Source: Salinilacihabitans rarus (GTDB lineage Archaea > Halobacteriota > Halobacteria > Halobacteriales > Natrialbaceae). From it: a stretch of DNA of 64,000 bases. Below are positions 13,227 to 59,462 of the stretch, piece by piece. Location: contig NZ_CP100762.1 of the NCBI RefSeq assembly GCF_024296665.1, positions 3,348,001 through 3,412,000 of the forward strand, in the 5' to 3' direction. The notes under the pieces were generated by a model. It was not told the DNA's origin and ran no database searches. It was given only the letters and a program-made list of their open reading frames with translations. Position 1 is the stretch's first letter, and every line of letters starts with the position of its first letter. Position numbers and translations under genes: made by a program.

Positions 13227-13349
13227 GCCGGTACGCCGTTCCGACCGGGTTCGACGCGCCGCCGACCCCGGTCGTTCCCCGGCGTCGCGCCGGACGGTGT
13301 GGCATCCATTGACGTACTTCGACGTGGAGTCTGCGGAGGGGGGTGCCAC

Positions 13350-14753
13350 ATGACCTTAGCAACCGTTCCGCGGTACGACGGCGACCGGGAGGTGGAGGGA
13401 GGCGAGCGCGCGGTCGTGATCGGGGCGAGTATGGCCGGCCTGCTCGCGGCCCGCGTCCTCGCCGACGCGTTCGACGAGGTCACGGTCGTCGACCGGGATC
13501 CGCTGCCCGACGAACCGATCGCCCGGCGCGGCGTTCCGCAGGCCGAGCACATCCACGTCCTGCTGGAGGGCGGGCGCGCCACGCTGGAGGACCTGTTCCC
13601 GGGCTACGGCGAGGAACTGCTCGCGGCCGGCGGGCTGGTGATCGACAACGCCCGCGACGTCGGCTTCTACTCCGAAGGGGACTTCCTCGCCGAGGGGCCG
13701 CGACGGATCCCGCTGTACTGTGCGACCCGGCCGCTCTACGAGCGGCTGGTTCGCCGTCGCGTCGCCGCCCTCGACGGCGTTCACCTGCGACAGGGCTGTC
13801 GGTTCAGGACCTACCGCGTCGACGACGCGGGGACGACCGTCGAGGGCGCGGCGGTCACCGACGAGGAGGGCGGGACCGAGGACCTCGCGGCCGATCTGGT
13901 CGTCGACGCCACCGGCCGGGCGAGTCGAACGCCGGCCCGGCTCGAAAAACGCGGCTACCCGTCGCCCGCCGTCGACGAGGTGTCCATCGACCTCGCGTAC
14001 GGCACGACGCTCGTCGAGCGGCCCGCCGACGACCGCCGCGCGTTCCTCGTGACGGCGTTCCCGCCGCACACTCGTGGCGGCGCGGCGCTCCCCGTCGAGG
14101 GCGATCGGTGGATGGTGACGCTGTTCGGGCTGCACGGCGACCACCCGCCGCGGGATCCGGCGGGGTTCCGGGAGTTCGCCGCGGGGCTGCCAACGCCGGA
14201 ACTGTCCCACCTCCTCGACGAGCAGCCGCGAGCCACCGAGGAGATCACCGGCTACCGATTCCCGGCCAGCAGACGGTATCGCTACGAGGACCTCGAACGG
14301 TTCCCCGAGGGGCTGGTCGTCGTCGGCGACGCGATCGCCAGCTTCAATCCGATCTACGGTCAGGGAATGTCGGTCGCCGCGTTCGAGGCGCTGGAACTCC
14401 ACCACGCGCTGGCGGCGGGCGGACGCGACGCGCTCGCGCGTCGCTTCTTCGAGCGGGCCGCGGAGACGGTCGACGCGGCGTGGAACATGGCCGTCGGCGG
14501 CGACCACCGGTTCCCGCGGACGGTCGGGCCGAAGCCGCGCGGAACCGACCTCGCGAACCGGTACTTCTCCCGGCTGCTCCGCACGGCACACGCCGACGGC
14601 GTGCTGGCGGACGCTTTCTTCCGGGTCCTGCTGATGGAACGTCCCGCCAGCTCGCTGCTGCGCCCCCGGATCGCCTGGCGCGTGTTCGCTCCGGCCCGCC
14701 CGACTCGGGAGATCGCGCTCCGCCGGCGGTTCGCGTCGACGCGCGTCAGGTAA
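13350..14753 (+). CDS. FAD-dependent monooxygenase/oxidoreductase
   Basis: 467-residue flavoprotein with an N-terminal Rossmann motif (AVVIGASMAGLLAARVLAD, about residues 20-38), a VVDRDPLPDEP strand end, VVDATGRASRTPARL in the middle, and a second FAD motif (EGLVVVGDAIASFNPIYGQG) like that of para-hydroxybenzoate hydroxylase and geranylgeranyl reductase relatives. The ATG at 13350 has a GGAGGGG sequence 8 nt upstream, better than the in-frame GTG at 13299. It probably forms an operon with the preceding BBE-type enzyme. Substrate unknown. Confidence 0.9.
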   Translation: MTLATVPRYDGDREVEGGERAVVIGASMAGLLAARVLADAFDEVTVVDRDPLPDEPIARRGVPQAEHIHVLLEGGRATLEDLFPGYGEELLAAGGLVIDNARDVGFYSEGDFLAEGPRRIPLYCATRPLYERLVRRRVAALDGVHLRQGCRFRTYRVDDAGTTVEGAAVTDEEGGTEDLAADLVVDATGRASRTPARLEKRGYPSPAVDEVSIDLAYGTTLVERPADDRRAFLVTAFPPHTRGGAALPVEGDRWMVTLFGLHGDHPPRDPAGFREFAAGLPTPELSHLLDEQPRATEEITGYRFPASRRYRYEDLERFPEGLVVVGDAIASFNPIYGQGMSVAAFEALELHHALAAGGRDALARRFFERAAETVDAAWNMAVGGDHRFPRTVGPKPRGTDLANRYFSRLLRTAHADGVLADAFFRVLLMERPASSLLRPRIAWRVFAPARPTREIALRRRFASTRVR

Positions 14754-21178: not shown

Positions 21179-21307
21179 GCCGACGGCTACGAACGCCCGG
21201 ACCAAAGCGTCACCGGCCCGACGGTGGCCCTCGCCGCGCTCGTGGCCCGCTATAGCACATGCAAGGCCAACCACCACACGCCTGTCTCACGTCTCTCTTT
21301 CCGGATA

Positions 21308-22294
21308 ATGACCACGGACACGACAGGCGACGGGCGCGAGGAGCGTCCGGCTCGCACACCGGTCGCAGCCGGCGCCGACGAGGGTGCCGGTCGCGGCCGG
21401 CGGGCGAGGGTTGTGACGGACGGGGGCGTAACCGACGTGACGGGCGACGAGGCGGCCGCCGACGAGGGCGAGGGGTCCGAGGAAACGCAAGCGGAAGCCG
21501 AGTCCGCGGGCGCGGAAGGCGAGGACGACGCGGAGTCGGAAGCGGAGACCGAGGAAGAGCAGCCGGAGGACGAAGCCGAGGAGGCCGAAGAGGCCGAGGA
21601 GGCCGAGTCAGAGGAAGGTGAGGAAGGCAAAGAGGCCGAGTCAGAGGAAGGTGAGGAGGCCGAAGAGGCCGAGGAGGGAGAAGAAGCCGGCGAGGGCGAA
21701 GCCGAAGCGGCCGAAGAAGGCGACGAGGGCGCACACGGCGGCGACGCCGAGGACGTCTACGAGAGCGACGAGGCCTCGGGCGTCCTCCACCTCGACCTCG
21801 ACGGCCTGTTCCTCGACCTGCTCGGACTGGAGGTCAACCTCAACGAGGTGACCCTCGACGTGTCGGCCCGCCCGGGCGGGAACAACCTGCTCGGCAACCT
21901 GCTGTCGGCGGTGACGGGCCTTCTCGACGGCGTCGGGTCGCCGCTGAGCGCGCTGACGAACAAGCTCGGCGGGGCGGTGAACCGCGTCCTCGGCATCCTG
22001 CCGGGCGTCGGTGGCGAAGACGGCGAGGAAGGCGAAGCGGGCGACGAGGGAGACGGCGACCCCGGCCTCCTCTCGCGGCTCGGCGGCTGGCTCCGCGGCC
22101 TGCCGGGGGCCGTCGCGGGCTGGTTCCGCCGGCGGCTAGCGGGCCTCGTCGGGCGGCTTCCGCTCGAAGACGTGATCGCGACGATCGTTCGGACGGCGAT
22201 CCAGCAGTTGATCGAGGCCGCGGAGTCGCGAACGGCCGAGGAAGAAGCGCCGGAGGAGGCGGAAGCGCCGTCCGGCGCGGAGGCCGAAGCATGA
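21308..22294 (+). CDS. Glutamate-rich protein with NLLGNLL domain (acidic operon gene 1)
   Basis: 328 residues without a signal peptide. A basic-to-neutral N-terminus (about 50 residues) is followed by an extremely Glu/Ala-rich repetitive stretch (about 52-142, EEAEEAEE-type). A folded domain follows at about 150-210 (LHLDLDGLFLDLLGLEVNLN, then SARPGGNNLLGNLLSAVTG). I recognise this pattern from bacterial secreted proteins of unknown function. The C-terminus has an amphipathic glycine-rich helix (GGWLRGLPGAVAGWFRRRLA) and an acidic tail. The ATG at 21308 follows a TATAG box at 21251 and a short leader. Its stop overlaps the next start (ATGA), so the genes are translationally coupled. Function unknown. 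Confidence 0.75.
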   Translation: MTTDTTGDGREERPARTPVAAGADEGAGRGRRARVVTDGGVTDVTGDEAAADEGEGSEETQAEAESAGAEGEDDAESEAETEEEQPEDEAEEAEEAEEAESEEGEEGKEAESEEGEEAEEAEEGEEAGEGEAEAAEEGDEGAHGGDAEDVYESDEASGVLHLDLDGLFLDLLGLEVNLNEVTLDVSARPGGNNLLGNLLSAVTGLLDGVGSPLSALTNKLGGAVNRVLGILPGVGGEDGEEGEAGDEGDGDPGLLSRLGGWLRGLPGAVAGWFRRRLAGLVGRLPLEDVIATIVRTAIQQLIEAAESRTAEEEAPEEAEAPSGAEAEA

Positions 22295-22758
22295 GCGGGG
22301 AGAGCGAGAGCGCCCAGTCGGGGTCGGAGTCGCTCGTCCAGCGCATCGACTACGAACGCATCGCCGAGAACGTCGACTTCGAGGACCTGCTCGAGGGGAC
22401 CCGATGGGAGGGCGAACTCGACGGCGACGAGCCGACGGGGACGGCCCTCGGCGGGTTGATCGGCGCGATCATCGGCCGGCGGGTCGGCGAGATCCTCGGG
22501 CGGACGATCGGCGAGACGGTGATCGAGGAGATACTCGGGCGCGAGGACGAGGAAGAAGCGGACGAGGAAGAGGGCGAGGAAGAAGAGGCCGAGGAAGAAG
22601 CCGAAGAGAGCGAGACCGAGGAAGAAGAAGGCGAGCAAGCGGAAGGCGAGGAAGAAGAAGGGGACGACGCGGAAGCGGAAGCGAGCGACGAGGAAGCGGA
22701 AGCCGAAGCGGCCGAGGACGGAGAGCGCGAAGAGGGGGAGGACGACGGTGACTCCTGA
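22291..22758 (+). CDS. Glycine-zipper, glutamate-rich protein (acidic operon gene 2)
   Basis: 155 residues in two parts. The first ~85 residues contain a short helix (RIDYERIAENVDFEDLLEG) and a striking glycine zipper, GGLIGAIIGRRVGEILGRTI, in which glycines recur every fourth residue for six turns (about 53-73). The last ~70 residues are almost only Glu, Ala, Asp and Gly, predicted disordered. The zipper region aligns with the start of gene 3, so the two are tandem paralogues. Glycine zippers pack helices tightly and often insert in membranes or oligomerise. The start overlaps the stop of gene 1. Confidence 0.75.
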   Translation: MSGESESAQSGSESLVQRIDYERIAENVDFEDLLEGTRWEGELDGDEPTGTALGGLIGAIIGRRVGEILGRTIGETVIEEILGREDEEEADEEEGEEEEAEEEAEESETEEEEGEQAEGEEEEGDDAEAEASDEEAEAEAAEDGEREEGEDDGDS

Positions 22759-22797
22759 CCCCGTTCCGGCGGCGCGGCCCGCGGGGGGTGAGACGCC

Positions 22798-23457
22798 GTG
22801 AGCGACGAGTCCGGACTTCGGGAGGTCGTCGTCGAGGAGGTGACCGAGCAGGTCGACGTCGGGAGGCTCGTCGACGGCGAGAGCCTGCAAGACCAGTTCG
22901 ACGGCGCGACCGTCGGCGAGTCCGTCTTCGGGCGACTCGGCGAGCGCCTCGGCCGCGAGATCGGCGCGTCCGTCGGCGCGAGCGTCCACGAGGCCCTCGA
23001 ACGCGGCCTCGAAGAGGGCGAGAGCCTCCGGGACCTGCTCGACCACCTCGTCGAGGCGGTCCGCGAGGGGCTTCGAGCCGTGTTCGGGGGCGAGGGCCCC
23101 GGGGACGTTCGCTCGCTCGTCGACGAGACCGCCGAGGCGGCCGGCATCGACGGTCTCGTTCCGGAACCGGAAGCGGACGAGGTGCCGGAGGCCGAGGCCG
23201 AGGAAGCCGCGGAACCCGGAGCCGAGGCGGCCGACGAGGCCCCGGCGGAAGCCGCGGAGATGGCCGAGACCGAGGACGGCCCCTCGGTGGAGGACCTAGA
23301 GGAGTTGCGGACGGAGACGCTCCGGGACTTCCTGTCGATGCTGTCCTACACCGACCTCCAGTCGATCGCGAAGGACCTCGACGTGCGGGCGAACCTGAGC
23401 CGCGAGGAGATGACCGACCGGATCGTCGAGACCGTCGCGGACGGCGGCGAGCAGTGA
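22798..23457 (+). CDS. Glycine-zipper protein with SAP/Rho-N-like C-terminus (acidic operon gene 3)
   Basis: 219 residues starting at a GTG with a GGGGTGAG sequence 6-7 nt upstream. The N-terminal ~70 residues resemble gene 2: a VDVGRLVDGE segment, then GRLGERLGREIGASVGASV with glycine every fourth residue (about 44-62). A Glu/Ala-rich linker follows. The C-terminal ~45 residues (ELRTETLRDFLSMLSYTDLQ, then SIAKDLDVRANLSREEMTDR) look like a helix-extended-helix module as in SAP or Rho N-terminal domains, which often bind nucleic acid; this is inference. It lies 39 bp after gene 2 and 25 bp before gene 4. Confidence 0.75.
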   Translation: MSDESGLREVVVEEVTEQVDVGRLVDGESLQDQFDGATVGESVFGRLGERLGREIGASVGASVHEALERGLEEGESLRDLLDHLVEAVREGLRAVFGGEGPGDVRSLVDETAEAAGIDGLVPEPEADEVPEAEAEEAAEPGAEAADEAPAEAAEMAETEDGPSVEDLEELRTETLRDFLSMLSYTDLQSIAKDLDVRANLSREEMTDRIVETVADGGEQ

Positions 23458-23482
23458 GACCCCCACGAGGTGCCTACACGAC

Positions 23483-24340
23483 ATGAGCGACCCACCGGAC
23501 GAGCGCGCGAGCGAGATTCTGGACGACGCGGCGGCGACCGTCGCGGACCTCCCGCCGGAGGCGGACCCGGAGGGGCTCCGCGACGAACTGGACGACGCGG
23601 ACGAGGACGCCCTGCGCGACTTCGCGGCGGCCGCCCGGGAAGTCGTCGAGGAGAGCGAGCCGGCCGACGTACTCGCGGCGGTCGGACTCTCGGAACTGCC
23701 CGACGGGAGCGAGCCGTCCTCGCTCCCGGAGGCCATCGCCGCGGGCGACCCCGGGAAGGTCGCCGACCTGCGGTCGCTGCTGATCCTCTCGAAACTGGCC
23801 GGCGAGTGGCGCGACGACGAGGCGGTCGGGCAGCGCCTGTCGGAACTCCGGGAGACGCTCGGCGAGCGGGCCGGGCCGTCGGCGCCCGACGAGGGGGAGG
23901 CCGACGCGGAGGGCGACGAGGCCGAGGCCGAACGCGCGGCGGACGAACGCGACGCCGAGGGCGGCGACCTCGAATCGACGCTCCAGTCGGCGATGGACGA
24001 CGCCCTCGGCGGGTTCGGCGACGAGGTCGCGGCCGTCCGGGAGCGTCTGGAGGGGATGCGCTCGGACGAGGGGGAGGGAGCGACCGCGGACGACGGATCT
24101 GCTGACGGGGTGGAGGCCGGAGCCGAGGCGGCGGACGAAGCGCCGACGGCGAAAGCGGAAGCCGAGACGGCCGAGGAGGGCGAGGGCCTCCTCGGCGGGC
24201 TGGGCGACTCGTCGGGGCAGTCCTCGGGCGTCGCCACCATGCACTCGACGGTCGCGCCGTCGCCCTCGAAGCGGGCGGACATGCGCGCGGTCAGGCGCTT
24301 CTCGACGATGCCGAAGCGACACCGGTCGGACGAGGAGTGA
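23483..24340 (+). CDS. Acidic coiled protein with basic C-terminal tail (acidic operon gene 4)
   Basis: 285 residues. The N-terminal ~130 residues are predicted helical and folded (ASEILDDAAATVADLPPEAD; ADLRSLLILSKLAGEWRDDE), followed by disordered Glu/Ala/Asp-rich segments and one helix (LESTLQSAMDDALGGFGDEV). Unlike the other three products, its last ~35 residues are basic and Ser/Met containing (SKRADMRAVRRFSTMPKRHR), a possible docking or nucleic-acid/membrane-binding tail. The start is an ATG 25 bp after gene 3. I recognise no family. Confidence 0.7.
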   Translation: MSDPPDERASEILDDAAATVADLPPEADPEGLRDELDDADEDALRDFAAAAREVVEESEPADVLAAVGLSELPDGSEPSSLPEAIAAGDPGKVADLRSLLILSKLAGEWRDDEAVGQRLSELRETLGERAGPSAPDEGEADAEGDEAEAERAADERDAEGGDLESTLQSAMDDALGGFGDEVAAVRERLEGMRSDEGEGATADDGSADGVEAGAEAADEAPTAKAEAETAEEGEGLLGGLGDSSGQSSGVATMHSTVAPSPSKRADMRAVRRFSTMPKRHRSDEE

Positions 24341-24427: not shown

Positions 24428-24901
24428 ATGACGAGACACGTGAGCGCCGAACAGGTCCGGCGGTGGCTCGACGAGACCGCCGTCCGCGGCGTGACCCACC
24501 ACGACGAGGCGGACGCGGAATTCAACTTTCAGGTCGAACTCTCGCGGCTGCCGATCCACGTCGTCAAGGAGGAGCCGTGGGGGCCGGTCCGGATCGTCGG
24601 CCGGACGGGGTTCGACTCGGACCGGGCGAAGGAACTGCTGTGCGACGACGAGCGCCGCGGCGAGTTGCTCCGCGCGGTCGGGCCGATGCTGGCGGCGACG
24701 CCGGGATTCTACACGTTCCTCGACGAGGAGGGCGCGCCCTGCGAGTTGCGCCACGCGGAGACGATCCAGCTCGAGTACCGCGTCTACCCTGACGGGGCGA
24801 GCCAGCAGACGCTGATGAACGGGGTGATGGCGGTCGGGAAGGGAATGCGGTACGTTCGGTCGGTGATCGTCTCGATGGGGACGGTCGACGACGGCCCGTG
24901 A
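24428..24901 (+). CDS. DUF2299-like conserved protein
   Basis: 157-residue soluble protein. It begins with a helix HVSAEQVRRWLDETAVRGVT, then strands FNFQVELSRLPIHVVKEEPW, and ends with a long helix GMRYVRSVIVSMGTV. It resembles the archaeal DUF2299 family, thought from overall shape to relate to secretion-chaperone-like folds; the assignment is by memory of the pattern and only moderately sure. A CCTTATCC box lies about 25 nt before the ATG, fitting a leaderless transcript. It follows the acidic operon on the same strand (87-bp gap) but probably has its own promoter. Confidence 0.65.
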   Translation: MTRHVSAEQVRRWLDETAVRGVTHHDEADAEFNFQVELSRLPIHVVKEEPWGPVRIVGRTGFDSDRAKELLCDDERRGELLRAVGPMLAATPGFYTFLDEEGAPCELRHAETIQLEYRVYPDGASQQTLMNGVMAVGKGMRYVRSVIVSMGTVDDGP

Positions 24902-44807: not shown

Positions 44808-45170
44808 ATGTTCGCGTTCGATCCAGACGTCGCCGTCGCGTTCGCGAGCTGGCCCGAGATGCGCTTTTCCCCCCTTCTGCTCGTCATCCTCCTCCTCGCG
44901 GGCGTCGGGACGACCGCACTCTTCCTGATCGGGCTGGCTGCCTACCGCCGACGGCGGTCGCGGACGTACCTGCTCATCACGCTCGCGCTCGGGACGCTCG
45001 TCGTCCGGACCGTCGTCGGCCTCGGGACGGTCTTCGGCGTCGTCCCGATGGGCGTCCACCACCTCGTCGAGCACACCTTCGACTTCCTCATCGCGGCGGT
45101 GTTGCTGGCGGCGATCTACTACCAGCGACGCGGGCCGTCACGGACGCCGGCCGACAGTTTCGGCGACTGA
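44808..45170 (+). CDS. Small membrane protein linked to the nos region
   Basis: 120 residues with three hydrophobic segments: FSPLLLVILLLAGVGTTALF, YLLITLALGTLVVRTVVGLG and VEHTFDFLIAAVLLAAIYYQ, separated by an arginine-rich loop (AAYRRRRSRT). Histidines in GVHHLVEHTFD at the third helix might bind metal or heme. It is divergent from the wHTH regulator. I recognise similar small proteins near haloarchaeal nos and copper genes, but the function is unknown. Confidence 0.7.
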   Translation: MFAFDPDVAVAFASWPEMRFSPLLLVILLLAGVGTTALFLIGLAAYRRRRSRTYLLITLALGTLVVRTVVGLGTVFGVVPMGVHHLVEHTFDFLIAAVLLAAIYYQRRGPSRTPADSFGD

Positions 45171-45227
45171 CGTGGCCGCCGGCGTGGTGTTTCGCCGTCA
45201 CGGACGCCGGCGGCCGAAAAAGTAAGG

Positions 45228-45237
45228 CCCTTAACCG
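45228..45237 (+). promoter_or_regulatory. Promoter of tRNA-Gly
   Basis: CCCTTAACCG, about 23-32 nt before the tRNA, with an A-rich BRE-like stretch (AAAAAGTAAG) just upstream; typical position for archaeal tRNA promoters. Confidence 0.45.
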
Positions 45238-45259
45238 GGGGCCGAGAAGGGGAGGGTGC

Positions 45260-45330
45260 GCGCGGATGGTCTAGTGGCAGGACCTGAGCCTTCCAAGCTC
45301 ATGGCCCGGGTTCAAATCCCGGTCCGCGCA
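45260..45330 (+). tRNA. tRNA-Gly (anticodon UCC)
   Basis: Complete 71-nt cloverleaf ending in the discriminator A, without encoded CCA or intron. The acceptor stem is GCGCGGA/TCCGCGC (45260-45266 with 45323-45329); the D arm contains GGTCTAGTGGCAGGACC; the anticodon stem TGAGC/GCTCA has loop CTTCCAA, giving anticodon TCC; the T arm is CCGGG-TTCAAAT-CCCGG. It reads GGA and GGG glycine codons. An integrase gene starts 185 bp after its 3' end, so the tRNA 3' half is the likely attachment site of the following element. Confidence 0.96.
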
Positions 45331-45422
45331 CTCCACAAGACTTCTCTCGTTGGTTTTCCGGGTTTCCAGCAATGACCCGACCATGCCATTCGAAGCTTAC
45401 AACGTGGGTTGGCGTACCGCAC

Positions 45423-45444
45423 CCCGGAGCCGTCTCCGGGTTTT
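45423..45444 (+). terminator. Hairpin with T run after tRNA-Gly
   Basis: CCCGGAG (45423-45429) pairs with CTCCGGG (45434-45440) around CCGT and is followed by TTTT. It could end the tRNA transcript or be part of the attachment region. Confidence 0.45.
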
Positions 45445-45515
45445 AAGAAGTTTCAAGCTTACTAGAGGTATAGTCAGTGGTTCCCCTGTTTTCGCGGAGC
45501 CGGAGGTGAGGGCTT

Positions 45516-46637
45516 ATGCAGGATGAGCGTGACAAGGTCGATGGAATCGTTGTGGTTCCGGAGCAGTCGGAGAAATACTTGAATCAGCGGCAGCTCGAGG
45601 ACTACCACAGCTTCCGGAGCCAGTTACTCAAATGGCTTCTCAACTTGGGGAAGGATCCGGAGATGGCTGAGGGCTACGCATTCGACACCGTGCGGCAGAG
45701 AGGATACAAAATCGACCAGTTCTACCGGTGGATCTGGAGGCAGGAAGACGGGTATACGCTCCGTGTCACGACCGGTCATGCGGACGAGTACTGCAAGGAG
45801 TTGGTGTACGAGGAGACATCGAAAACTCACAAGGCCGCCGTCCAGAAAGCGATCAAATCGCTATTCAAGTATCTGAACCACGAGAGAGGACGAAGTATCG
45901 ACTGGGAACCCGAGATCAAGTTCTCCAGCGGCGGCGCCACACACCAGATACGAGATTTCCTGACAGGAGACGAACGGAGAAAGATCAAACAGGCTAGTCT
46001 CGAATACGGGTCGATACCTCATTATAACTCCTTGGACCCGCGTGAGAGAGATAAGTGGAAGGCTCATCTGGCGCAACGGTTCGAAAAACCGAAGACCGAG
46101 GTGACCAGGAATGACTGGGAACGAGCGAACGGGTGGAAGTATCCCTCGATCGTCTACACATCGATGGATGCAGGTCTGAGGCCCAAGGAGGTTGGGCGCG
46201 CCAAAACGAGTTGGCTCGACCTCGAGAACGGGATGCTCCGTATCCCCAAAGATGAGTCGACGAAGAACACGGACAACTGGCACGTCGCACTCAGCGACCG
46301 CACATCGAATATTCTACGGAAATGGGTGAGTGAGCGGGAGAACTACGAAAAGTACCGGGGGACAGAAGCACTGTGGCTTACCAAGTACGGAAACCCGTAC
46401 GGTAGCTCCTCGCTCAATCGGTTACTCGGAAAGCTGTGTGAAGAAGCCAGAATCCCGGTGAAAAACAGAGACATGTCCTGGTACTCGATCAGACACTCAG
46501 TGGGTACGCAGATGAGCCGGGACCAGGGACCTGCTGCAGTCCAACAACAGCTACGTCAGAAGTCGTATGAGATGGCTGTCCGGTACGACCAAGCACCTGT
46601 AGACGACCGTCAGGAAACAGTCAATAACTGGGACTAA
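45516..46637 (+). CDS. Tyrosine recombinase/integrase
   Basis: 373 residues. An N-terminal core-binding region (about 20-140; AHKAAVQKAIKSLFKYLNHE-like helices) precedes the catalytic domain. Catalytic positions seen are Arg I in MDAGLRPKEVGRAK (about residue 222), the R-H pair in SWYSIRHSVGTQ (about residue 327) and the tyrosine in EMAVRYDQAP (about residue 358). The histidine three residues before Arg II is a tyrosine, as often in haloarchaeal integrases. A perfect Shine-Dalgarno sequence GGAGGTGA lies at 45502-45509, fixing the ATG. It is probably responsible for integration at the adjacent tRNA-Gly; a role on the repeats farther downstream is speculation. Confidence 0.92.
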   Translation: MQDERDKVDGIVVVPEQSEKYLNQRQLEDYHSFRSQLLKWLLNLGKDPEMAEGYAFDTVRQRGYKIDQFYRWIWRQEDGYTLRVTTGHADEYCKELVYEETSKTHKAAVQKAIKSLFKYLNHERGRSIDWEPEIKFSSGGATHQIRDFLTGDERRKIKQASLEYGSIPHYNSLDPRERDKWKAHLAQRFEKPKTEVTRNDWERANGWKYPSIVYTSMDAGLRPKEVGRAKTSWLDLENGMLRIPKDESTKNTDNWHVALSDRTSNILRKWVSERENYEKYRGTEALWLTKYGNPYGSSSLNRLLGKLCEEARIPVKNRDMSWYSIRHSVGTQMSRDQGPAAVQQQLRQKSYEMAVRYDQAPVDDRQETVNNWD

Positions 46638-46856
46638 TACTCACTCCTCTCCAAGGGATCCGGTCTCTCCTTTCCTCTAATCACTGTACAGTATACAGTC
46701 GCTCGATTTCAAACCTGGATTCAAACCTGATTCGTCCGGTATTGGCTTCCGATTCTAACCTGTCTTCTAACCTGGTTCCGCCTATGGCCGTGGAAAAGAA
46801 GAGGGCTCTTACCGGACTCAGTGAAGCAGTAGCATCTAAGTTGTGTCACAGTCTCT
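46638..46856. other. Non-coding region downstream of the integrase
   Basis: No gene visible. It contains palindromic CTGTACAG (about 46,685-46,692), a GTATAC sequence next to it, and the two iteron-like pairs listed separately. Confidence 0.5.
46708..46774 (+). repeat. Two pairs of 12-bp-spaced direct repeats (iteron-like)
   Basis: TTCAAACCTG occurs at 46708-46717 and 46720-46729; the variant TTCTAACCTG occurs at 46753-46762 and 46765-46774. Each pair has a start-to-start distance of 12 bp and the pairs are 45 bp apart. They lie 71-137 bp after the integrase stop. Such paired short repeats typically bind integrase arm domains, excisionase or a replication initiator. Confidence 0.6.
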
Positions 46857-46930
46857 CGTGATGAACACACAGCGCGAATGTGGCACGGATTGAGGAGCGA
46901 TCAACACGGAAGGGCGAACGCTCAGTACAG
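46857..46930 (+). repeat. Repeat R1 (right half only)
   Basis: GATGAACACACAGCGCGAATGTGGCACGGATTGAG-type sequence ending in CTCAGTACAG corresponds to the right half of repeat R2 (which has GCGCGAATGTGTCAC and GCTCAGTACAG). The left palindromic part is missing or decayed. It is the copy nearest the integrase. Confidence 0.55.
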
Positions 46931-46954
46931 TGTGCGCACTGAACACGAGTATTG

Positions 46955-47196
46955 GGCCTTGTTTAGACGCTAGTGAGAGCGGTGCTGTGGCTTGATGCTG
47001 ATCCTCTGGACGAGACTTCGTCGAGAGTTTTGCCCCACGGTCGAGATGATGGTGTCCCTCCAACCTCGATAAAACGGCTGTAGAACCGAAATTGTAGAGA
47101 CCAGTTTCTCGTTGACGATTCTATTTCCAACCTCTGTGTGTCTATTCTCGGTCTGTGGACCTCGTTACCCTCGAATTTTCGCGTCTAAACACGGCC
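46955..47196 (+). mobile_element. MITE-1 (16-bp terminal inverted repeats, 9-bp target duplication)
   Basis: Ends are GGCCTTGTTTAGACGC at 46955 and its complement GCGTCTAAACACGGCC ending at 47196, one mismatch in 16. The direct repeat CGAGTATTG flanks it exactly (46946-46954 and 47197-47205). The 242-bp interior has no transposase. The same terminal sequence bounds MITE-2 at 48,987, so both belong to one non-autonomous family mobilised by a transposase located elsewhere. Confidence 0.85.
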
Positions 47197-47271
47197 CGAG
47201 TATTGTATCGATAGCAAGACAGGAAACGTGGAAAAAGAGCGACCGGAGTCAAGACGACACAGCCAAGTAAT

Positions 47272-47808
47272 TCAATCAGAACACGTTTTGATCTTCCCGT
47301 CAGTTTCGTCCACCATTTCAACCTTGATTACTGTGCGCGTCGGCGGATTAGAGCCATTTCGACGCCACCTGTTTAACCGAACCCAATCTTCATCTGGATC
47401 TTCGAGTACGGGCGGCCATTCGGCGAGCGGAAGGTGGAAGATGAAGCGGTCACCATCGACTTCATTTCGCGGACACCACCCCTTATACACGCCGTCTGGA
47501 ATCACCTTCAGTTTCGACGCAAAAATCGCAGCAAATTCCTGGTCTGGATCGAACTCTGTGTAGTGATCATACCCGTGTTGAGAGAGAATCTCTTCATCCA
47601 ATATAGCTGTTAACTCGTCCGGCGTTGCAAACACTTCTGCCCGAAAAGGTTTGCCTCTCCAGTCAGTCGGATCATTAGTGAAGATCGGGCTTCGTGTCGT
47701 GAGGTGGGTTGCTTCCTGAAAGGAGGGTCCTGTGAGTTGATCAAGGCAACCCGCACCTGTGAGTGGAACGCTTGTTGCGGCAGCGAGGACCGTCCGTCTA
47801 GAGGGCAT
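47272..47808 (-). CDS. Tat-type lipoprotein of unknown function
   Basis: 178 residues with a twin-arginine lipoprotein signal (PSRRTVLAAATSVPLTGAGC; GAGC is the lipobox). The mature domain contains FRAEVFATPDELTAILDEEI, DPDQEFAAIFASKLKVIPDG and a C-terminal VIKVEMVDETDGKIKTCSD; tryptophans and a WCPRNEVDGDRF segment suggest a compact beta domain. The ATG at 47808 begins the signal peptide; a longer open frame upstream is not supported. It is the gene between repeats R1 and R2. Function unknown. Confidence 0.75.
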   Translation of the reverse strand: MPSRRTVLAAATSVPLTGAGCLDQLTGPSFQEATHLTTRSPIFTNDPTDWRGKPFRAEVFATPDELTAILDEEILSQHGYDHYTEFDPDQEFAAIFASKLKVIPDGVYKGWCPRNEVDGDRFIFHLPLAEWPPVLEDPDEDWVRLNRWRRNGSNPPTRTVIKVEMVDETDGKIKTCSD

Positions 47809-47920
47809 CTTATGATAAGTAAGTGTAGTGTGTAATATAGTCCTTGATTCAGACGTGGGTGTTTCTTTGGCACTTAACAGATGGGTTTTCGCTGGCCTGT
47901 TATCTGATTCGACTGTACTG

Positions 47921-48102
47921 AGCGGTTGGTACGTCTGTTTCGGTGTGAAACAAACGATGCCGTCGTGCTGTACTAATCCTCTGAATTCAGCAGGCATCTC
48001 CTGACATAATTCGAACAGAACGTTCAGCTTCTGCTGAATAGATAGCGCGAATGTGTCACTCGGTAGGCGCGATCTGCGAAGGCAGTGATCGCTCAGTACA
48101 GA
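47921..48102 (+). repeat. Repeat R2 (full length)
   Basis: Left part: AGCGGTTGG…GTGAAACAAACGATGCCGTC, then GTGCTG…CTCTGAATTCAGCAG. Right part: CTGCTGAATAGATAGCGCGA, then GATCTGCGAAGGCAGTGATC and GCTCAGTACAGAG. ATTCAGCAG (about 47,985-47,993) and CTGCTGAAT (about 48,031-48,039) form an inverted repeat with a 37-nt spacer. Closest relative within the window is R5. Confidence 0.7.
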
Positions 48103-48110
48103 GAACGGAT

Positions 48111-48827
48111 TTATTGGTTCTCTTTCCAGTCGTCCGGGTCCCCTTCACGGAATTCTCCCTTGGCATGGCGCTCGTGGGGCCAGAAGGTGACGCCCAGCAG
48201 TACGACGTAGAACACACCCACAATGGCAACCACAGCAATCCCGGGGATACGGGCGATTCCAGCGGTTGTCAGCCAGTCTTGGCGCGGCGCGAACGCTGTA
48301 ATCCTGGAGACCCACGCGACCAATAGAACACTGAGCAGAGCAAGGTACACACGCCGGAGCCGGTTTGCGAGTGCTTCGTGGAACGAGACTTTCAGCGTCG
48401 GCCTGCGATAGTCCCTGCTCAGTTCCGCTCGCCAGTCGTGACTTTCAGTGCCTTGGGACGGATCGAGGGCGTTTGCGAACAGGTTCTCTTGGATGACTCG
48501 AGCACGAGAGCGAAAGACATCGTAGTCCCGGTACCGCCGTGCTTCGATGCCCAGAAAGATGGTGACGACAACGATCCCGATCAGCAAGATATAGTGTGGG
48601 TTATCGGTACTCGAAAACGCCCACGTCAAGATTGCTGCCATCAGCGTCACCCCCCACTTCGTCGTCTCGTCGAGGCGCTGCCGCCACGTCCCCACTCGGT
48701 CTATCTCTCCGCGATAGGCGTGGGCCATCACCGAACCGAGTCCCGTACTGTCGTCAACCATTTTGCGGCCGATCTCCCGGTGATCTGGTGCTGTTGGGTC
48801 GAACTCGTCGCTACCCGAATCGGTCAT
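48111..48827 (-). CDS. DUF2270 integral membrane protein
   Basis: 238 residues. The family opening (REIGRKMVDDSTGLGSVMAH; AYRGEIDRVGTWRQRLDETT) is followed by helix pair TKWGVTLMAAILTWAFSSTD and YILLIGIVVVTIFLGIEARR with the conserved EARRYRDYDVFRSRARVIQE. A second hydrophobic pair lies at about 160-180 and 195-220. DUF2270 proteins are widespread small membrane proteins of unknown role. It is the gene between R2 and R3 and ends 9 bp after R2. Confidence 0.85.
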   Translation of the reverse strand: MTDSGSDEFDPTAPDHREIGRKMVDDSTGLGSVMAHAYRGEIDRVGTWRQRLDETTKWGVTLMAAILTWAFSSTDNPHYILLIGIVVVTIFLGIEARRYRDYDVFRSRARVIQENLFANALDPSQGTESHDWRAELSRDYRRPTLKVSFHEALANRLRRVYLALLSVLLVAWVSRITAFAPRQDWLTTAGIARIPGIAVVAIVGVFYVVLLGVTFWPHERHAKGEFREGDPDDWKENQ

Positions 48828-48920
48828 AAAGGAGAGACACCTCCTCGCTCCATAAGCAGTGATGGTGACGGCGTAATCTGAGTGTTAGTACTGGAGAACA
48901 TCGAATAGTACGCAGGTCTA

Positions 48921-49150
48921 CTGAACGGCTGGTTCATTGGCTTCGGAGTGAAACAAACGAACCCGTCGTGCTGAATTCATGTTCTGAACCTTGTTTAGAC
49001 GCTCCCGGATGAGCGGGTCAGGAGTCATTTTGACTGAACAGAATCCGGTGGTAAGCACCTCACAGTACGGTTCCATACTTTGAGAACGAAGCGTTAGCGC
49101 CGATCTCGGTCGCGTCTAAACAAGGCCCATGCTCTGTATTCAGCACGACC
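48921..49150 (+). repeat. Repeat R3 (left half, split by MITE-2)
   Basis: CTGAACGGCTGGTTCATTGG, GTGAAACAAACGAACCCGTC and GTGCTGAAT belong to the left half. It continues after MITE-2 as CTCTGTATTCAGCACGAC. Removing the insertion restores GTCGTGCTGAAT facing ATTCAGCACGAC, a perfect 12-bp inverted repeat with an 11-nt loop. No right half follows. Confidence 0.7.
48987..49127 (+). mobile_element. MITE-2, inserted in repeat R3
   Basis: 141 bp with ends AACCTTGTTTAGACGC (48987) and GCGTCTAAACAAGGCC (to 49127), matching MITE-1 except for the first bases. Flanks are CATGTTCTG (48978-48986) and CATGCTCTG (49128-49136), a 9-bp target duplication with one change. The interior has no open frame of note. 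Confidence 0.78.
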
Positions 49151-49252
49151 CCTTAAACCTATCACCGATTGAGGATTTCATCAAGGCCGAAATATTCCCT
49201 CCATTTCGGTGGTGGAGCGGGGTATAGAGGGCTACAGTACCTACTAGGAGTG

Positions 49253-49462
49253 ATGTCCGAATCAGAAGCAAATCGCTGGGAGTACGAGACGCTTCGCCCA
49301 CCGCGCGATGAGTCCCAAAAAGAAGCAGAGGATCCGAAAGCAGAGTTGAATCAACTCGGTGCAGAGGGCTGGGAGTTTGTAGAGACGATCGACTACGAGG
49401 GAGGCGGCACCAAGTACCTCGTTTTCAAGCGACCTGCCAATCGAGTGAGCCAGTATGACTGA
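49253..49462 (+). CDS. DUF4177-type small protein
   Basis: 69 residues: NRWEYETLRPPRDESQKEAE, then ELNQLGAEGWEFVETIDYEG and GGTKYLVFKRPAN. This is the DUF4177 pattern (W-E-Y…L-N-x-L-G-x-E-G-W-E), a small alpha/beta domain of unknown role often coupled with membrane proteins. The ATG at 49253 has AGGAG 2 nt upstream; an in-frame start at 49169 is not supported by homology. Its end overlaps the next gene by 8 bp, so they are coupled. Confidence 0.8.
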   Translation: MSESEANRWEYETLRPPRDESQKEAEDPKAELNQLGAEGWEFVETIDYEGGGTKYLVFKRPANRVSQYD

Positions 49463-50471
49463 CGAGACCGACATCAGTACGGCCAACACGATGCGTGAGC
49501 GCTCGGGCGAGAGTCGGATAAAACTCTGGTTGCTGCTGCGCGCGAACCGCCTTCTCGTCTCCAGTGTCCTGACCAGTGCCGTGTTCGTTGCATTCGTGAT
49601 CGCCGTCGCTGTCCTCGATCCACCATTTTCACGGCAAATCGAGTCCGGCGACATGATCGACACGATGTTCTCGACGATGATCACGGTCATCGTGACTGGG
49701 ACGACACTCGTCGTCACGATCGGTCAGCTCGTCCTCTCCCAGGAGAACGGCCCGCTCGGCGATCAACGCGAGCGTATGGCCAGTTCGATGGATTTCCGGG
49801 ATTTTACTGAAGAATTAATCGGGTCTCCGAGTCCTGCCGACCCATCCGAATTCCTCCGCCAGATCATCGGAATCACGGCACAACGGACGACGGCTCTTCG
49901 AGAGTCTATTGGTAAGAATGATGACGAGAACCTCCGAGAAGAGGTCGATGAATTCGCTGAAAGCGTCACTGGGAACGCTGACACGGTGTGTGATCAACTT
50001 GAGGATGCGCAGTTCGGCTCGTTCGATGTGTTATTCGCTGCACTAAATTTCAATTATAGCTGGAAAATCTTCCAAGTTGAACGTCTCGCGAACGAATACG
50101 AAGAGAGCCTCAATGAGGAAGAACGCGGCTTGCTTGACGACCTCAAAACAGCACTGTCTCTGTTTGGTCCGGCGCGCGAACACATCAAGACGTTGTACTT
50201 CCAGTGGGCACTCATTGACTTGTCTCAGATGATTCTCTATGCTGCAGTCCCGGCATTGGCCGTTGCGGGTATCATGGTCGGAATCGTCGATGCGGGGACG
50301 TTCCCAGGAAGCACACTCGGTCTCGATCACATCATCCTCGTCGTGGGTGGTGCGTTTGCGGTGACGCTCGTTCCATTCATGCTGTTCGTCTCGTACGTCC
50401 TTCGCATCGTCACCATAGCAAAACGGACACTTGCCATCGAGCCGCTGATCCTCCGCGAATCACAACGCTAA
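49455..50471 (+). CDS. Membrane protein of unknown function
   Basis: 338 residues with four hydrophobic helices: two near the N-terminus (VLTSAVFVAFVIAVAVLDPP; MFSTMITVIVTGTTLVVTIG) and two near the C-terminus (ILYAAVPALAVAGIMVGIVD; HIILVVGGAFAVTLVPFMLF). Between them is a ~150-residue helical domain with RQIIGITAQRTTALRESIGK and YSWKIFQVERLANEYEESLN. The topology (helix pair, large domain, helix pair) resembles haloarchaeal proteins of unknown function that accompany DUF4177/DUF2270 genes. Translationally coupled to the DUF4177 gene. It is the gene pair between R3 and R4. Confidence 0.75.
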   Translation: MTDETDISTANTMRERSGESRIKLWLLLRANRLLVSSVLTSAVFVAFVIAVAVLDPPFSRQIESGDMIDTMFSTMITVIVTGTTLVVTIGQLVLSQENGPLGDQRERMASSMDFRDFTEELIGSPSPADPSEFLRQIIGITAQRTTALRESIGKNDDENLREEVDEFAESVTGNADTVCDQLEDAQFGSFDVLFAALNFNYSWKIFQVERLANEYEESLNEEERGLLDDLKTALSLFGPAREHIKTLYFQWALIDLSQMILYAAVPALAVAGIMVGIVDAGTFPGSTLGLDHIILVVGGAFAVTLVPFMLFVSYVLRIVTIAKRTLAIEPLILRESQR

Positions 50472-50724
50472 GATCCGACGCAGAACTCAAACCTCAGACA
50501 CGGTTGGATGTGGACGCTTCGTGAGGCACTGAGGTTAGTCACTCTCAAAACGGGCGTCGATTGCTCGCGTCCCGCCACAGTTCCAATACCGTCCTCCGCG
50601 AGGAGATCGACACAGGCGCTGTTGAATGCCTTTGGAAATTTCCCAACCCCATTGCAGCCTCTAACATCGAAAATATAGCCCCGAAACGATTCGTCGTCCT
50701 TAATCCACTGGAATGACCGATGGA
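50472..50724. other. Intergenic region before R4
   Basis: About 250 bp without a recognisable gene, repeat or RNA. Its sequence is of moderate GC, like the rest of the element. Confidence 0.4.
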
Positions 50725-50855
50725 TACTCTATATTCAGCACGCCGCTCGTGATAGCGACTCGGGATTTCGGTCAGGAGTTGCCGAATACAGAGTGCGAAT
50801 GTCGCACGAGATTCGGGTCGATTTGCGAAGGGTAGTGATCGTTCAGTCTAGGAGA
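50725..50855 (+). repeat. Repeat R4
   Basis: TACTCTATATTCAGCACG (from 50725), then TGCCGAATACAGAGTGCGAA, GTCGCACGAGATTCGG and GATTTGCGAAGGGTAGTGAT. CTCTATATTCAGCA and TGCCGAATACAGAG are inverted copies with mismatches. The part containing GTGAAACAAACGA is absent. Confidence 0.65.
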
Positions 50856-50884
50856 AATGTTGAACACTGTCTTCTGTCCAACCC

Positions 50885-51262
50885 TCATCTACGAAGGGTT
50901 GCAACGGGACTTTTTGTACGGTGTCTCTCCTGATTTTCGGCCAACAGTTTGAGATGAGGTCGTATCTCGTCAAAATGGGGGCCTTGCATTACAAGATCGT
51001 CATTTCGATCCCACTCGATGAACCCGTACTCCGCTAATTTAGGCAGATGGATGTGGTGCATACTAACCGAGTACTCATCGGCTTCTGCAATCGTTCGAGA
51101 ACTGGATAGATGTCTGTGAAGTAGGTTCTCGTCTGCTTCTGCAACCTCTCGGGAAATGCCGGACGGTTTTGAGACGCGTTGGGGGCTGGAGAGTAATTTG
51201 ACTAGTAACTGTCGTCGGTGGCTGTCCGCCAATGCGTCAAAGACATCATCATAATTGACCAT
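50885..51262 (-). CDS. Winged-helix (ArsR-like) regulator
   Basis: 125 residues: DDVFDALADSHRRQLLVKLL at the start is typical of haloarchaeal ArsR-like regulators (ALADxxRRxLL). The recognition part is ADEYSVSMHHIHLPKLAEYG followed by FIEWDRNDDLVMQGPHFDEI as wing. It stands alone between R4 and R5. Its low GC and position suggest a regulator of the element. Target unknown. Confidence 0.8.
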   Translation of the reverse strand: MVNYDDVFDALADSHRRQLLVKLLSSPQRVSKPSGISREVAEADENLLHRHLSSSRTIAEADEYSVSMHHIHLPKLAEYGFIEWDRNDDLVMQGPHFDEIRPHLKLLAENQERHRTKSPVATLRR

Positions 51263-51381
51263 TCCATATCCCTCGGCCTCAACTATGGTCTCTCATAATC
51301 TTAAATACGCATCATTTTTACGGTTCACTGTTGTTTTGATTAACTGAGTGATTAAGTGTGCCCAGTTCAGTTCGCATATTC
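51263..51381. other. Upstream region of the ArsR-like gene
   Basis: AT-rich sequence (CTTAAATACGCATC on the plus strand near 51,299) probably carrying the minus-strand promoter. No gene seen. Confidence 0.4.
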
Positions 51382-51552
51382 ACTGAACAGCTGATTCATT
51401 GACTTCAGGATGAAACAAACGAAGCCGTCGTGCTAAACTCATCCTCTATATTCAGCACGCGACTCCTGTCAGTTGAAGGATTCAAAGACGCTGAATAGAG
51501 AGCACAAATGTGGCATAAATTGAGGGCCGATCTGCAAAGGGAAGTGATCGGC
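51382..51552 (+). repeat. Repeat R5 (full length)
   Basis: CTGAACAGCTGATTCATTGA, then GATGAAACAAACGAAGCCGT and CGTGCTAAACTCATCCTCTA with TTCAGCACG (left half), followed after about 30 nt by GCTGAATAGAGAGCACAAAT and GGCCGATCTGCAAAGGGAAG (right half). CGTGCT/AGCACG and CTCTATATTCAGC/GCTGAATAGAG are the two inverted repeats. Same layout as R2. Confidence 0.7.
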
Positions 51553-51599
51553 GGGACAGGTAGAGGAAGTTTCGAAGACAGTCGATCGCCACTGGAATG

Positions 51600-51806
51600 T
51601 TAGTCTCTGGCTGTCTGATCTTCGCGGGTGAAGTGGAAATATACGGGATGGTCATTGGGGCAGCGAACGAGTCGGGTCGTGGTACCTCCGTCTTCGGGCC
51701 TCGTGGAATCTGGCTCGGAACTAACCTCAACCTGTGAAATCCCCTGCGGCAGCCCTACTGGCACGGATTCTGAGCAAATCGGACACGTTACTTCCCGAAT
51801 GCCCAT
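51600..51806 (-). CDS. Small zinc-ribbon-like protein
   Basis: 68 residues with CPIC near the N-terminus and CPNDHPVYFHF about 35 residues later, a possible split zinc knuckle (C-x2-C … C-x3-H). The middle is polar and probably flexible (SEPDSTRPEDGGTTTRLV). It is the gene between R5 and R6. Function unknown. Confidence 0.6.
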   Translation of the reverse strand: MGIREVTCPICSESVPVGLPQGISQVEVSSEPDSTRPEDGGTTTRLVRCPNDHPVYFHFTREDQTARD

Positions 51807-51916
51807 AGTAGGTTAGAGTCAACAGAATACTAAAATACCACTAGCTAAGTCCTTTGATTCTCAGCGGTTGCGGTCCCGACGATCGATCTAAGGTACAGTC
51901 GGTACGCACGCGTGGT

Positions 51917-51982
51917 GAGCGGACGGTTCACTTACGGTATAACGTCGTTGTCGTGCTAAACCCACTCTCTATTCAGCACGCC
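51917..51982 (+). repeat. Repeat R6 (left half, degenerate)
   Basis: GAGCGGACGGTTCACTTACG, then GTCGTTGTCGTGCTAAACCC and ACTCTCTATTCAGCACGCC. It retains the GTCGTGCT/AGCACG inverted repeat; the right half is missing. It is the last copy, 120 bp before the stop of the VirD4-like gene. Confidence 0.6.
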
Positions 51983-52101
51983 ATCTGTATTAACCAGTGA
52001 GGATTTCAACAGAGCCTGTGGAGGTCGAAAACGGAGAAGTCCCTGACATCCATTTCCGGAGAAGAGACCTCAAATTAGTGGGAGACGGATAGACCACAGT
52101 T

Positions 52102-54153: not shown

Positions 54154-54279
54154 GTCAGGGCACCTCCTACGCGATCGCCAGGTGTTCTACAACGCAGGGG
54201 TACTCTATTTTGGCCCGGGAATAGCCCACCTGTTTTCAAGCCGGATTCCACACTGACGTCGGATACAATAGGAGCATGG

Positions 54280-55260
54280 TCAGGGGTGTGCCGTCCTGAG
54301 GTTCTCTTGCTCTCTGTCTGGGATCGATACCAGCCCAGCGAGCTCCTCGGCAGAGGTCTGGAACGGAAGCATCCAGCCGCGAAACTCTTGGTCCGCTACG
54401 GCGGCCGCAAAGCCCCGTATGCGGGAGGCTCGAAGCGTCCGAAGATAGTGTGTTTCGAGAAACTGGCCGGTGGTCAAGTTCTCGAATACATTGAATCCGC
54501 CCGAGAGTTCTTTCACCCGGCTCAACGTGGCATCACCTGCCCCGATCACCAGGATGCGAATTCCCGTGTTGAATCGCGATCCGTCGACTTTCGCCTCGAT
54601 CAGGTTAGCCTGTTCTCGTTCACGTGCAGTCACATTGCGCTCGGGCAGCAAGATGCCCGACCGATCGCCTCCGAGGTACTGTGCCTCTTTCTGGGCCTTC
54701 CGGGCCCATCGACGATCCCTGATCGACTTCCGCGCAGCCGGTTGGAACAGGACCTGGATAACGAGTCGCGAATCCCGCATGGCATGGCGATGGAGTGAAC
54801 TCACCACCGAATTGATCGGTGGAGACTCGAAATCAGTCCGGAGTGGATACCAGTCTGTCTTTCCCATGGTGAGGACGCCGCCACCAATGGAGTTCCCCTT
54901 CTCGATGGGAAGGCCAGCTTCCCCCGACTCGAATCCGACCCCCGGGACGGTCTCCGCTAACTGGGTTCGGACTTTCCGCTCTAATCGCTTCGTAGGGACC
55001 GAGAACTGGAGCTGGAGCCGCTCCGGAGATGATCGACGGATCTCGTAGACAGAGACCGGTGACTTGTTCTGCAAGCCGAACCATGTCGTCTGGTACTCGG
55101 TGATACCTTTCACGAACCGGTAGACTGTCTCTGGAACGTCGTCGTTTGACGGTGGCTTAACCCTGACCGTGAACCTCCCGTCCGGCGCCTGAGAGAGGGC
55201 GTCCGCTGTCTCTTGATTTATTGTGATGTGGTTGCGGAGGAGTCGGTCTTTCGCGCTCAT
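54280..55260 (-). CDS. T4SS-associated protein of unknown function
   Basis: 326 residues, no membrane helix. Two alpha/beta halves are visible: FTVRVKPPSNDDVPETVYRF with SVYEIRRSSPERLQLQFSVP, and later NTGIRILVIGAGDATLSRVK with FETHYLR-like segments. In other conjugation systems a domain like this is fused in front of a VirD4/HerA-type ATPase; here it may be a separate subunit of the coupling protein (inference). Its ATG overlaps the stop of the VirB4-like gene by 4 bp, so it belongs to the same coupled operon. Confidence 0.7.
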   Translation of the reverse strand: MSAKDRLLRNHITINQETADALSQAPDGRFTVRVKPPSNDDVPETVYRFVKGITEYQTTWFGLQNKSPVSVYEIRRSSPERLQLQFSVPTKRLERKVRTQLAETVPGVGFESGEAGLPIEKGNSIGGGVLTMGKTDWYPLRTDFESPPINSVVSSLHRHAMRDSRLVIQVLFQPAARKSIRDRRWARKAQKEAQYLGGDRSGILLPERNVTAREREQANLIEAKVDGSRFNTGIRILVIGAGDATLSRVKELSGGFNVFENLTTGQFLETHYLRTLRASRIRGFAAAVADQEFRGWMLPFQTSAEELAGLVSIPDREQENLRTAHP

Positions 55261-58795: not shown

Positions 58796-59271
58796 TGTGG
58801 CACCCCACAAAGTGGTGTCGTGACGATCTCTACCAGCGCGCCGCTAAGGATGATAATCGCCAGTCCAATCGTTGTATTGATGAATATCCGCTTCGCACGT
58901 TCCTGTGCCTCGATCGTCCCCAACGACCAGTAGTACCCGGCCACAAGGTAGAGCAGCCCAGCTAGCGGGAACGCGATCCTCACCCCGAGCGCGTGGAGGT
59001 GGTCGATCAACGCTGTCAGTCGGACAACAGATGCTTCTTCGTGTTCAACGATATCCTCGCCTTCGTAGGGACTCCTGTTGGAACAGGCTGAGCTCGCCTC
59101 GTGTGCCACGGCTTCCCCCGCGAACAGAGATGTCGCGACGAGTACCAGGATAACTACTCGCCCAATGGTTGCTACAGTGGCAGGTCCATCTCTATACAGG
59201 CTGTTCTTCCAGCGTGAAATGCAAGTTGTACGTACCGATTCTTTGAATCGGATATTGTGGTTCACCCTCAT
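58792..59271 (-). CDS. VirB2/TrbC-like pilin candidate
   Basis: About 159 residues. A hydrophobic signal segment (TIGRVVILVLVATSLFAGEA) precedes a cysteine-containing polar part, then the pilin-type pair of helices: LHALGVRIAFPLAGLLYLVA and RAKRIFINTTIGLAIIILSG, with the short basic turn EAQERAKR between them. That turn is typical for T4SS pilins (helix-KG/RAKR-helix). The start is uncertain; the ATG at 59271 (MRVNHN) was chosen and an in-frame TTG/ATG extension to 59391 seems less likely. First gene of the coupled secretion operon. Confidence 0.7.
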   Translation of the reverse strand: MRVNHNIRFKESVRTTCISRWKNSLYRDGPATVATIGRVVILVLVATSLFAGEAVAHEASSACSNRSPYEGEDIVEHEEASVVRLTALIDHLHALGVRIAFPLAGLLYLVAGYYWSLGTIEAQERAKRIFINTTIGLAIIILSGALVEIVTTPLCGVPQ

Positions 59272-59421
59272 TTTCAGGTAATCCAACGAGAAGGGACGGC
59301 CTACTTCAGATTGAACACCCTCTACAGAACTATGGAGAACTCGCGAAATCGGTTTTGTAGCACCTAAAGCTGGTAAATATTTGTTATTCAATTAATTTAA
59401 CCTCAGAGCTGGGGTTTCTTA

Positions 59422-59434: not shown

Positions 59435-59462
59435 AATACGGGTGCAAACCCTCCTTCCCCAT

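Follow-up and report, generated by a model that had tools for sequence, protein, structure and literature searches.

Glutamate-rich operon G1-G4 of haloarchaea as a candidate gas-vesicle accessory module, usually unlinked to the gvp genes

What do four adjacent genes for acidic proteins, none of them covered by a profile model, contribute to a haloarchaeal cell? The question is raised by a stretch of 64,000 nucleotides from Salinilacihabitans rarus, called the window here, which spans positions 3348001-3412000 of the single contig (G000:C1) of a 3.6-Mb genome. The four genes, named G1 to G4, lie on one strand of the window:

21308 to 22294, plus strand: G1, 328 amino acids, with a Glu-rich N-terminal half, a core domain and amphipathic C-terminal helices
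22291 to 22758, plus strand: G2, 155 amino acids, with a glycine-zipper helix and, after it, a Glu-rich tail; paralogous to the N-terminal region of G3
22798 to 23457, plus strand: G3, 219 amino acids, GTG start, with a glycine-zipper helix, an acidic linker and a C-terminal SAP-like three-helix domain
23483 to 24340, plus strand: G4, 285 amino acids, paralogue of the long protein at the GvpI position, with a basic C-terminal STxxP..RADM..STMP tail

The answer proposed here, with a probability of roughly 55%, is that these genes form an accessory operon for gas vesicles, protein bubbles by which cells float, in which G4 would be a second GvpI and G1-G3 would stand in for GvpC, and which is usually unlinked to the gas-vesicle (gvp) genes. 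The broader claim, that G1-G4 are a gas-vesicle accessory module of some kind, is very probably correct. Four lines of sequence-based evidence carry the proposal, namely co-occurrence with gvp genes, physical linkage to them in some lineages, paralogy of G4 with GvpI and avoidance of GvpC.

Genomes were scored as gvp-positive when a PF00741 gene (GvpA/J/M) is present. Among 125 Natrialbaceae genomes, G2 is found in 109 of the 112 that are gvp-positive and in none of the 13 that are gvp-negative (Fisher p=4e-15). Across 313 genomes of the order, a search with a 74-residue probe (E<1e-5) places the G1 domain in 105/129 gvp-positive and 1/184 gvp-negative genomes (p=3e-58, or 2e-31 outside Natrialbaceae alone), with all of these Fisher tests treating genomes as independent, though the genomes are related. 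The domain is thus confined to genomes with gvpA-type genes with one exception, a metagenome-assembled genome (MAG) that is 70% complete. Three Natrialbaceae genomes have gvp without G2: G157, which lacks the operon and has a divergent gvpC placed between its gvpA and gvpN; G146, which has neither the operon nor gvpC; and G222, a fragmented assembly. Joint absences of G2 and gvp fall in several genera (for example three genomes of g2, one of g7, and also g58 and g62), which argues for joint loss of the operon and gvp more than once, as read from the genus assignments and with some absences being incomplete MAGs. The gene at 24428, directly behind G4, served as a negative control and is present in only 48 of the 125 family genomes; therefore, the pattern of G2 and gvp is not a generic lineage effect, to the extent allowed by an unclean control that is often operon-linked itself.

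Co-occurrence could also be indirect, if G1-G4 were a separate surface or scaffold system that serves the same planktonic lifestyle and never contacts a gas vesicle. The distance between the two loci agrees with this explanation, given that the cluster of this genome (C1:1848342-1851183) lies about 1.5 Mb from the operon and that the operon is far from gvp in the majority of Natrialbaceae and Haloarcula-type genomes. Against it stand the paralogy of G4 with GvpI and the genes that directly adjoin gvpA-gvpO in several further families, and we regard an indirect association as very improbable.

The linkage is seen outside Natrialbaceae, where about 23 of the 46 G1-positive genomes have G1 no more than 10 kb from a PF00741 gene, based on coordinates compared by hand. 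In loci L060, L064, L072 and L099, gvpA, gvpO, a gene for a small CxxC-type protein and then G1 follow one another on one strand, and in L060, L064, L065, L072 and L105 genes similar to G1, G2 and G3 adjoin gvpA-gvpO. The operon genes of family f14 and of L099 come after gvpA-gvpO and not after gvpF-M. Genes similar to G1 and G2 are inserted between gvpH and the gvpI position in L062-L063, and G4-like genes occupy the gvpI position itself, between gvpH and gvpJ, in L059, L061-L063, L073, L074 and L077. Operon-type genes were found in or beside gvp clusters in some lineages (L059-L065, L067, L072, L099, L105). A protein of 100-120 amino acids with an 'LPWIDEP' start and a CxxC end is encoded between gvpO and G1 in f14 and L099, while in L105 its gene adjoins the G1-like one; it is possibly a further member of the module.

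The cluster of the host genome (locus L087, C1:1840000-1859999) consists of gvpO, gvpA and gvpF-M, includes a long GvpI and lacks gvpC. It also lacks gvpN, and a search for GvpN in the host genome gave no match above cut-off. A conserved, zinc-ribbon-like CxxC protein of 71 amino acids is encoded beside gvpM in Natrialbaceae gvp clusters, here and in six further loci (L088, L089, L091, L092, L106, L114):

13274 to 13489 of locus L087, minus strand: 71-amino-acid CxxC protein

The link between G4 and GvpI was drawn with hidden Markov models (HMMs) built from operon copies only. The HMM of the N-terminal part of G4 matches the protein at the GvpI position of the same genome (E=3e-7), with the same type of model matching other long proteins at that position down to E ~1e-9, and the HMM of the tail matches the host's GvpI-position protein as well (E=5e-5). 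The tail motif hSTmAppPSeRADMrgvaRhSTMP is common to G4 and GvpI-position proteins. The short GvpI of Halobacterium salinarum (AAHSTMPP...NSHSTVPK...) joins G4 through an iterated profile only (1.4e-8), the strict profile not being significant. A long N-terminal extension has been described for Natrialbaceae GvpI (PMC3403918). G4 is thus homologous to GvpI by sequence and does not lie between gvpH and gvpJ; it sits in a separate operon, and the cluster (L087) encodes a GvpI besides. Therefore, as judged from sequence and position, G4 is a GvpI paralogue and not the GvpI of the cluster.

A GvpI-like G4 also raises the main rival to a role in place of GvpC, which is that the operon acts in nucleation or early growth, as an extension of the GvpF-M complex, and not at the finished surface. 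G4 would then work with GvpH/GvpI and GvpL, while G1-G3 would chaperone the hydrophobic GvpA, GvpJ and GvpM. GvpI binds GvpH, GvpF and GvpL in H. salinarum (PMC7688916), which is consistent with such a role, as are the families in which G1-like and G2-like genes are inserted into the gvpF-M unit, with gvpH and gvpI on either side. The arrangement in f14 and L099, where the genes follow gvpA-gvpO instead, does not suit it, nor does it predict the avoidance of GvpC described below, and on balance an assembly role is unlikely.

The substitution of G1-G3 for GvpC rests on how the two are distributed. Detectable gvpC occurs in 0 of 105 gvp-positive genomes with G1 and in 8 of 24 without it (p=5e-7; outside Natrialbaceae, 4e-5), with gvpC undercounted by a search that used the single sequence of H. 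salinarum GvpC as query. The eight genomes with both gvp and gvpC (G049, G051, G060, G064, G067, G138, G257, G277) come from three families, and none has G1. Genus g35 is split in the same manner, as G056 has G1 without GvpC and G064 has GvpC without G1. Wherever gvpA was called in a G1-type cluster, the next gene is gvpN or gvpO, with none between. According to published descriptions, gvpC and gvpDE are missing from Natrialbaceae gvp clusters (PMC4390858, PMC3403918). A phmmer search with the GvpC of strain NRC-1 matched GvpC-type genes only, and none in the host genome. Direct homology of G1-G3 to GvpC repeats was considered and rejected, as none was found. In short, the rule that a gvp-bearing genome has either gvpC or the operon is strong but not absolute.

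The composition and layout of the operon are largely as the first-pass annotation had described them. Its coordinates for four adjacent genes on one strand match the open reading frames, with an ATGA overlap of G1 and G2 and gaps of 39 bp between G2 and G3 and 25 bp between G3 and G4. All four were also chosen by a codon-usage gene caller, which calls G1 shorter; the ATG at 21308 lies inside a stretch of DNA that is conserved among relatives. Each protein has an isoelectric point (pI) of 4.05, and Glu makes up 21% of G1, 34% of G2, 19% of G3 and 15% of G4, as compared to 8.3 +/- 4.0% (maximum 18.8%) in the 45 other genes of the window. The proteins had been called far more acidic than normal, and this holds moderately for G1 and G3 and strongly for G2 (z 6.2) but fails for G4 (z 1.6), which is not unusual; the tail of G4 is basic (pI 11.3), as had been noted. 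Neither Pfam nor NCBIfam has a model that reaches its cut-off with G1-G4, in keeping with the earlier view that they belong to no known family, and no literature on these proteins was found. The order G1-G2-G3-G4 on one strand, for which conservation in haloarchaea had been proposed as a check, recurs in 90/107 haloarchaeal loci, which is beyond chance in a set that includes some genomes entered twice because they were fetched by two routes. When 146 genomes of the order were searched with G3 and G4, Natrialbaceae yielded strong collinear matches, and other families yielded weaker ones that lie inside gas-vesicle clusters; a plasmid search with G3 gave no match.

The most diagnostic part of the module is the core domain of G1 (alignment A1), with the pattern LDLxGLFLDLLGLEV...GNLLGNLL and a mean column identity of 75% over 23 diverse sequences; no Pfam model covers this GPGNLLGNLL domain, and no signal peptide was seen in G1:

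21779 to 21940, plus strand: G1 core domain GVLHLDLDGLFLDLLGLEVNLNEVTLDVSARPGGNNLLGNLLSAVTGLLDG

Many Natrialbaceae relatives of G1 continue after this domain with tandem KPxELLxxLL repeats. Of 63 intervals between KP pairs, 52 measure 11, 22, 33 or 44 residues; therefore, the unit is an 11-residue amphipathic repeat, and its hydrophobic moment reaches 0.58. Amphipathic repeats of 11 residues coat hydrophobic surfaces in other proteins, and cyanobacterial GvpC has repeats of 33 residues. The likeness of the G1 repeats to those of GvpC and other surface-coating proteins is a resemblance and would not serve as a test. A structure search with G1 was dropped because its AlphaFold model is too poor (mean predicted local distance difference test score, pLDDT, 64.5; predicted template modelling score 0.29).

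G2 and G3 share homology in their N-terminal glycine-zipper regions. The amphipathic, glycine-patterned helices that had been read from the letters are borne out, and the SAP/Rho-N-like end of G3 is recovered as a resemblance, with matches that remain below significance: the zipper of G2 matches Pfam Gly-zipper_Omp at E=0.005, which is below cut-off, and that of G3 is modelled by AlphaFold as one long helix (34-70), after which come an acidic linker that is disordered in the model and a C-terminal domain of three helices predicted with confidence (pLDDT 90-97). This end matches Pfam SAP_new25 at E=0.14 and, by Foldseek, SAP, Rho and DEK over about 42-57 columns with small root-mean-square deviation (for Rho and DEK, 0.8-1.0 A across some 42 residues), at E>1. 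The same SAP-like domain also ends a ribosomal uS3-like protein encoded in a ribosomal gene cluster (L066, L069), and it is therefore a widely used haloarchaeal module.

Given these features, G1, G2 and G3 could bind the growing GvpA shell, the GvpF-M/GvpO assembly complex or both, through the C-terminal helices of G1 and the glycine-zipper helices of G2 and G3. The soluble Glu-rich tracts and the SAP-like end of G3 would then face the high-salt cytosol, G4 would act as a second GvpI, and the shape, strength or growth of the shell would thereby be controlled. We infer both the binding to shell or complex and the effect on shell stability or shape. In H. salinarum, GvpC uses its C-terminal domain to bind GvpN, GvpO and several members of the GvpF-M set (PMC9372576). 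Amphipathic proteins with acidic tails, together with a second GvpI, that are absent where gvpC is present would fit a replacement of GvpC. That G1-G3, with G4, take its place at the shell surface or in the growth complex is a tentative proposal, held at somewhat under even odds; the fuller version, a second and non-homologous haloarchaeal way to reinforce or shape gas vesicles by a three- or four-protein coat usually encoded apart from gvp, in which G1 with its 11-residue repeats, the glycine-zipper proteins G2 and G3 and the second GvpI would replace GvpC, is slightly more tentative still.

The long acidic tracts and the linkers of low pLDDT are also what a weaker rival would require, in which G1-G4 cluster or position finished vesicles as the phase-separating GvpU of Priestia megaterium does, with disordered Glu-rich tracts and multivalent helices that form a condensate. 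GvpU, together with GvpT, brings about clustering in pNL29 (PMC11445434). However, acidic tracts are widespread among haloarchaea and occur in GvpC itself, no sequence test links G1-G4 to GvpU, and avoidance of GvpC is again not predicted, so we consider clustering improbable. The first-pass annotation had suggested membrane-associated or phase-separating scaffolds; the data can be explained without either. Its picture of a conserved acidic, amphipathic set with a SAP-like end survives. Its statement that no named system has this composition does not, as co-occurrence, linkage in other families and the relationship of G4 to GvpI all tie the set to gas vesicles, the very kind of similarity that it had named as counting against its reading.

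Several observations weigh against the replacement of GvpC or against a gas-vesicle role. The Natrialbaceae species with these clusters are described as Vac- (PMC4390858, PMC3403918), with several of the family reported so in PMC4390858. Genome G024 has the operon and a gvpC-free cluster, plus another gvp cluster whose gvpC is divergent; neither this gvpC nor that of G157 was picked up by the genome search, which leaves the count of GvpC too low. About 16 gvp-positive genomes have neither G1 nor GvpC, and it may be that neither is indispensable or that remote forms were missed. The G1 of the window lacks the 11-residue KP repeats, keeping only the amphipathic C-terminal helices, and its AlphaFold model is poor. 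Finally, the G1 core domain also occurs in Chloroflexi and Nocardioides proteins (L164, L182, L183, L184, L185) that look secreted and have no gvp neighbours; therefore, haloarchaeal G1 may have recruited a more widespread domain.

The DNA upstream of the operon holds a conserved element about 30 bp before the start codon of G1:

21255 to 21278, plus strand: conserved element GCACATGCAAGGCCAACCACCACA

Its Natrialbaceae consensus is GCAyACGCAAGGc.AA.c.CCACA, with about 42 matches upstream of G1 in related loci. A GCAAG-core pattern, GCNNNYGCAAGS, which was picked after both sequence groups had been viewed, has 14 occurrences in the 3.26 kb of gvpA-gvpF intergenic DNA as compared to two in 139.6 kb from elsewhere; the window as a whole holds one, which precedes G1. 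In a held-out test, a weight matrix from the gvp sites does not recover the site before G1 in the window, nor does the converse succeed; a clear gvp-type site directly before G1 was found only in Haloarcula amylovorans (L150). A promoter element shared by the operon and gvp, and hence co-regulation, is thus suggested at most.

The control gene behind G4 may be a fifth member of the operon:

24428 to 24901, plus strand: DUF2299-like gene, directly 3' of G4 (Pfam E=0.045, below cut-off)

It lies just behind the operon in about 28 of the 125 Natrialbaceae genomes. Further along the window, from 45000 to 64000, the G+C content drops from about 70% to 50-60%, which suggests an integrated element.

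Gas vesicles are well known, and a distant accessory operon with a distribution complementary to GvpC was not found described. In Natrialbaceae and other haloarchaea, gvp clusters are on record without gvpC, in species listed as Vac-, and whether they work is a question that can now be tested in Haloferax volcanii. The operon tracks gvp and is absent with gvpC-bearing clusters except in one two-cluster genome, so it may be the missing partner. If so, many gvp clusters described without gvpC would be complete once the operon is counted, and heterologous expression of such clusters would have lacked up to four genes. This would be relevant to the engineering of gas vesicles as acoustic reporters or for antigen display. 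The LDL-GNLLGNLL domain, also present in apparently secreted bacterial proteins, would gain its first functional context.

Among known systems, the Chloroflexi and Nocardioides GPGNLLGNLL proteins share the core domain of G1, with 60-66% identity over about 50 residues, but have a signal-peptide-like N-terminus and lack the acidic tract and gvp neighbours. GvpU of P. megaterium, in the literature a non-essential accessory of disordered character, has been likened here to G1-G4 by description and not by sequence, and the gene context differs. The divergent GvpCs (L113, L090) end in a SAP-like domain with weak similarity to the end of G3 (hhalign probability 81%); a link between these ends was set aside as weak (E=0.025 and 1.5), the domain being found elsewhere as well. 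The second-type gvp clusters that encode them, in G024 and G157, are flanked by apparent chemotaxis genes (CheA, CheY, CheW-like). The long form of GvpI (Nmag_0338/Htur_2370 type) shares with G4 an acidic N-terminal region and the STxP..RADM..STxP tail, whereas G4 is encoded apart, in the operon, has no terminal RxYGxRF segment and occurs alongside the GvpI of the cluster. As compared to GvpC, G1-G3 are three proteins and not one, are usually unlinked to gvpA and have, in G1 and G2, no detectable homology to the GvpC repeat; with GvpC they share an acidic tract, amphipathic helices and, in some families, the position after gvpA, and the distributions of the two are complementary.

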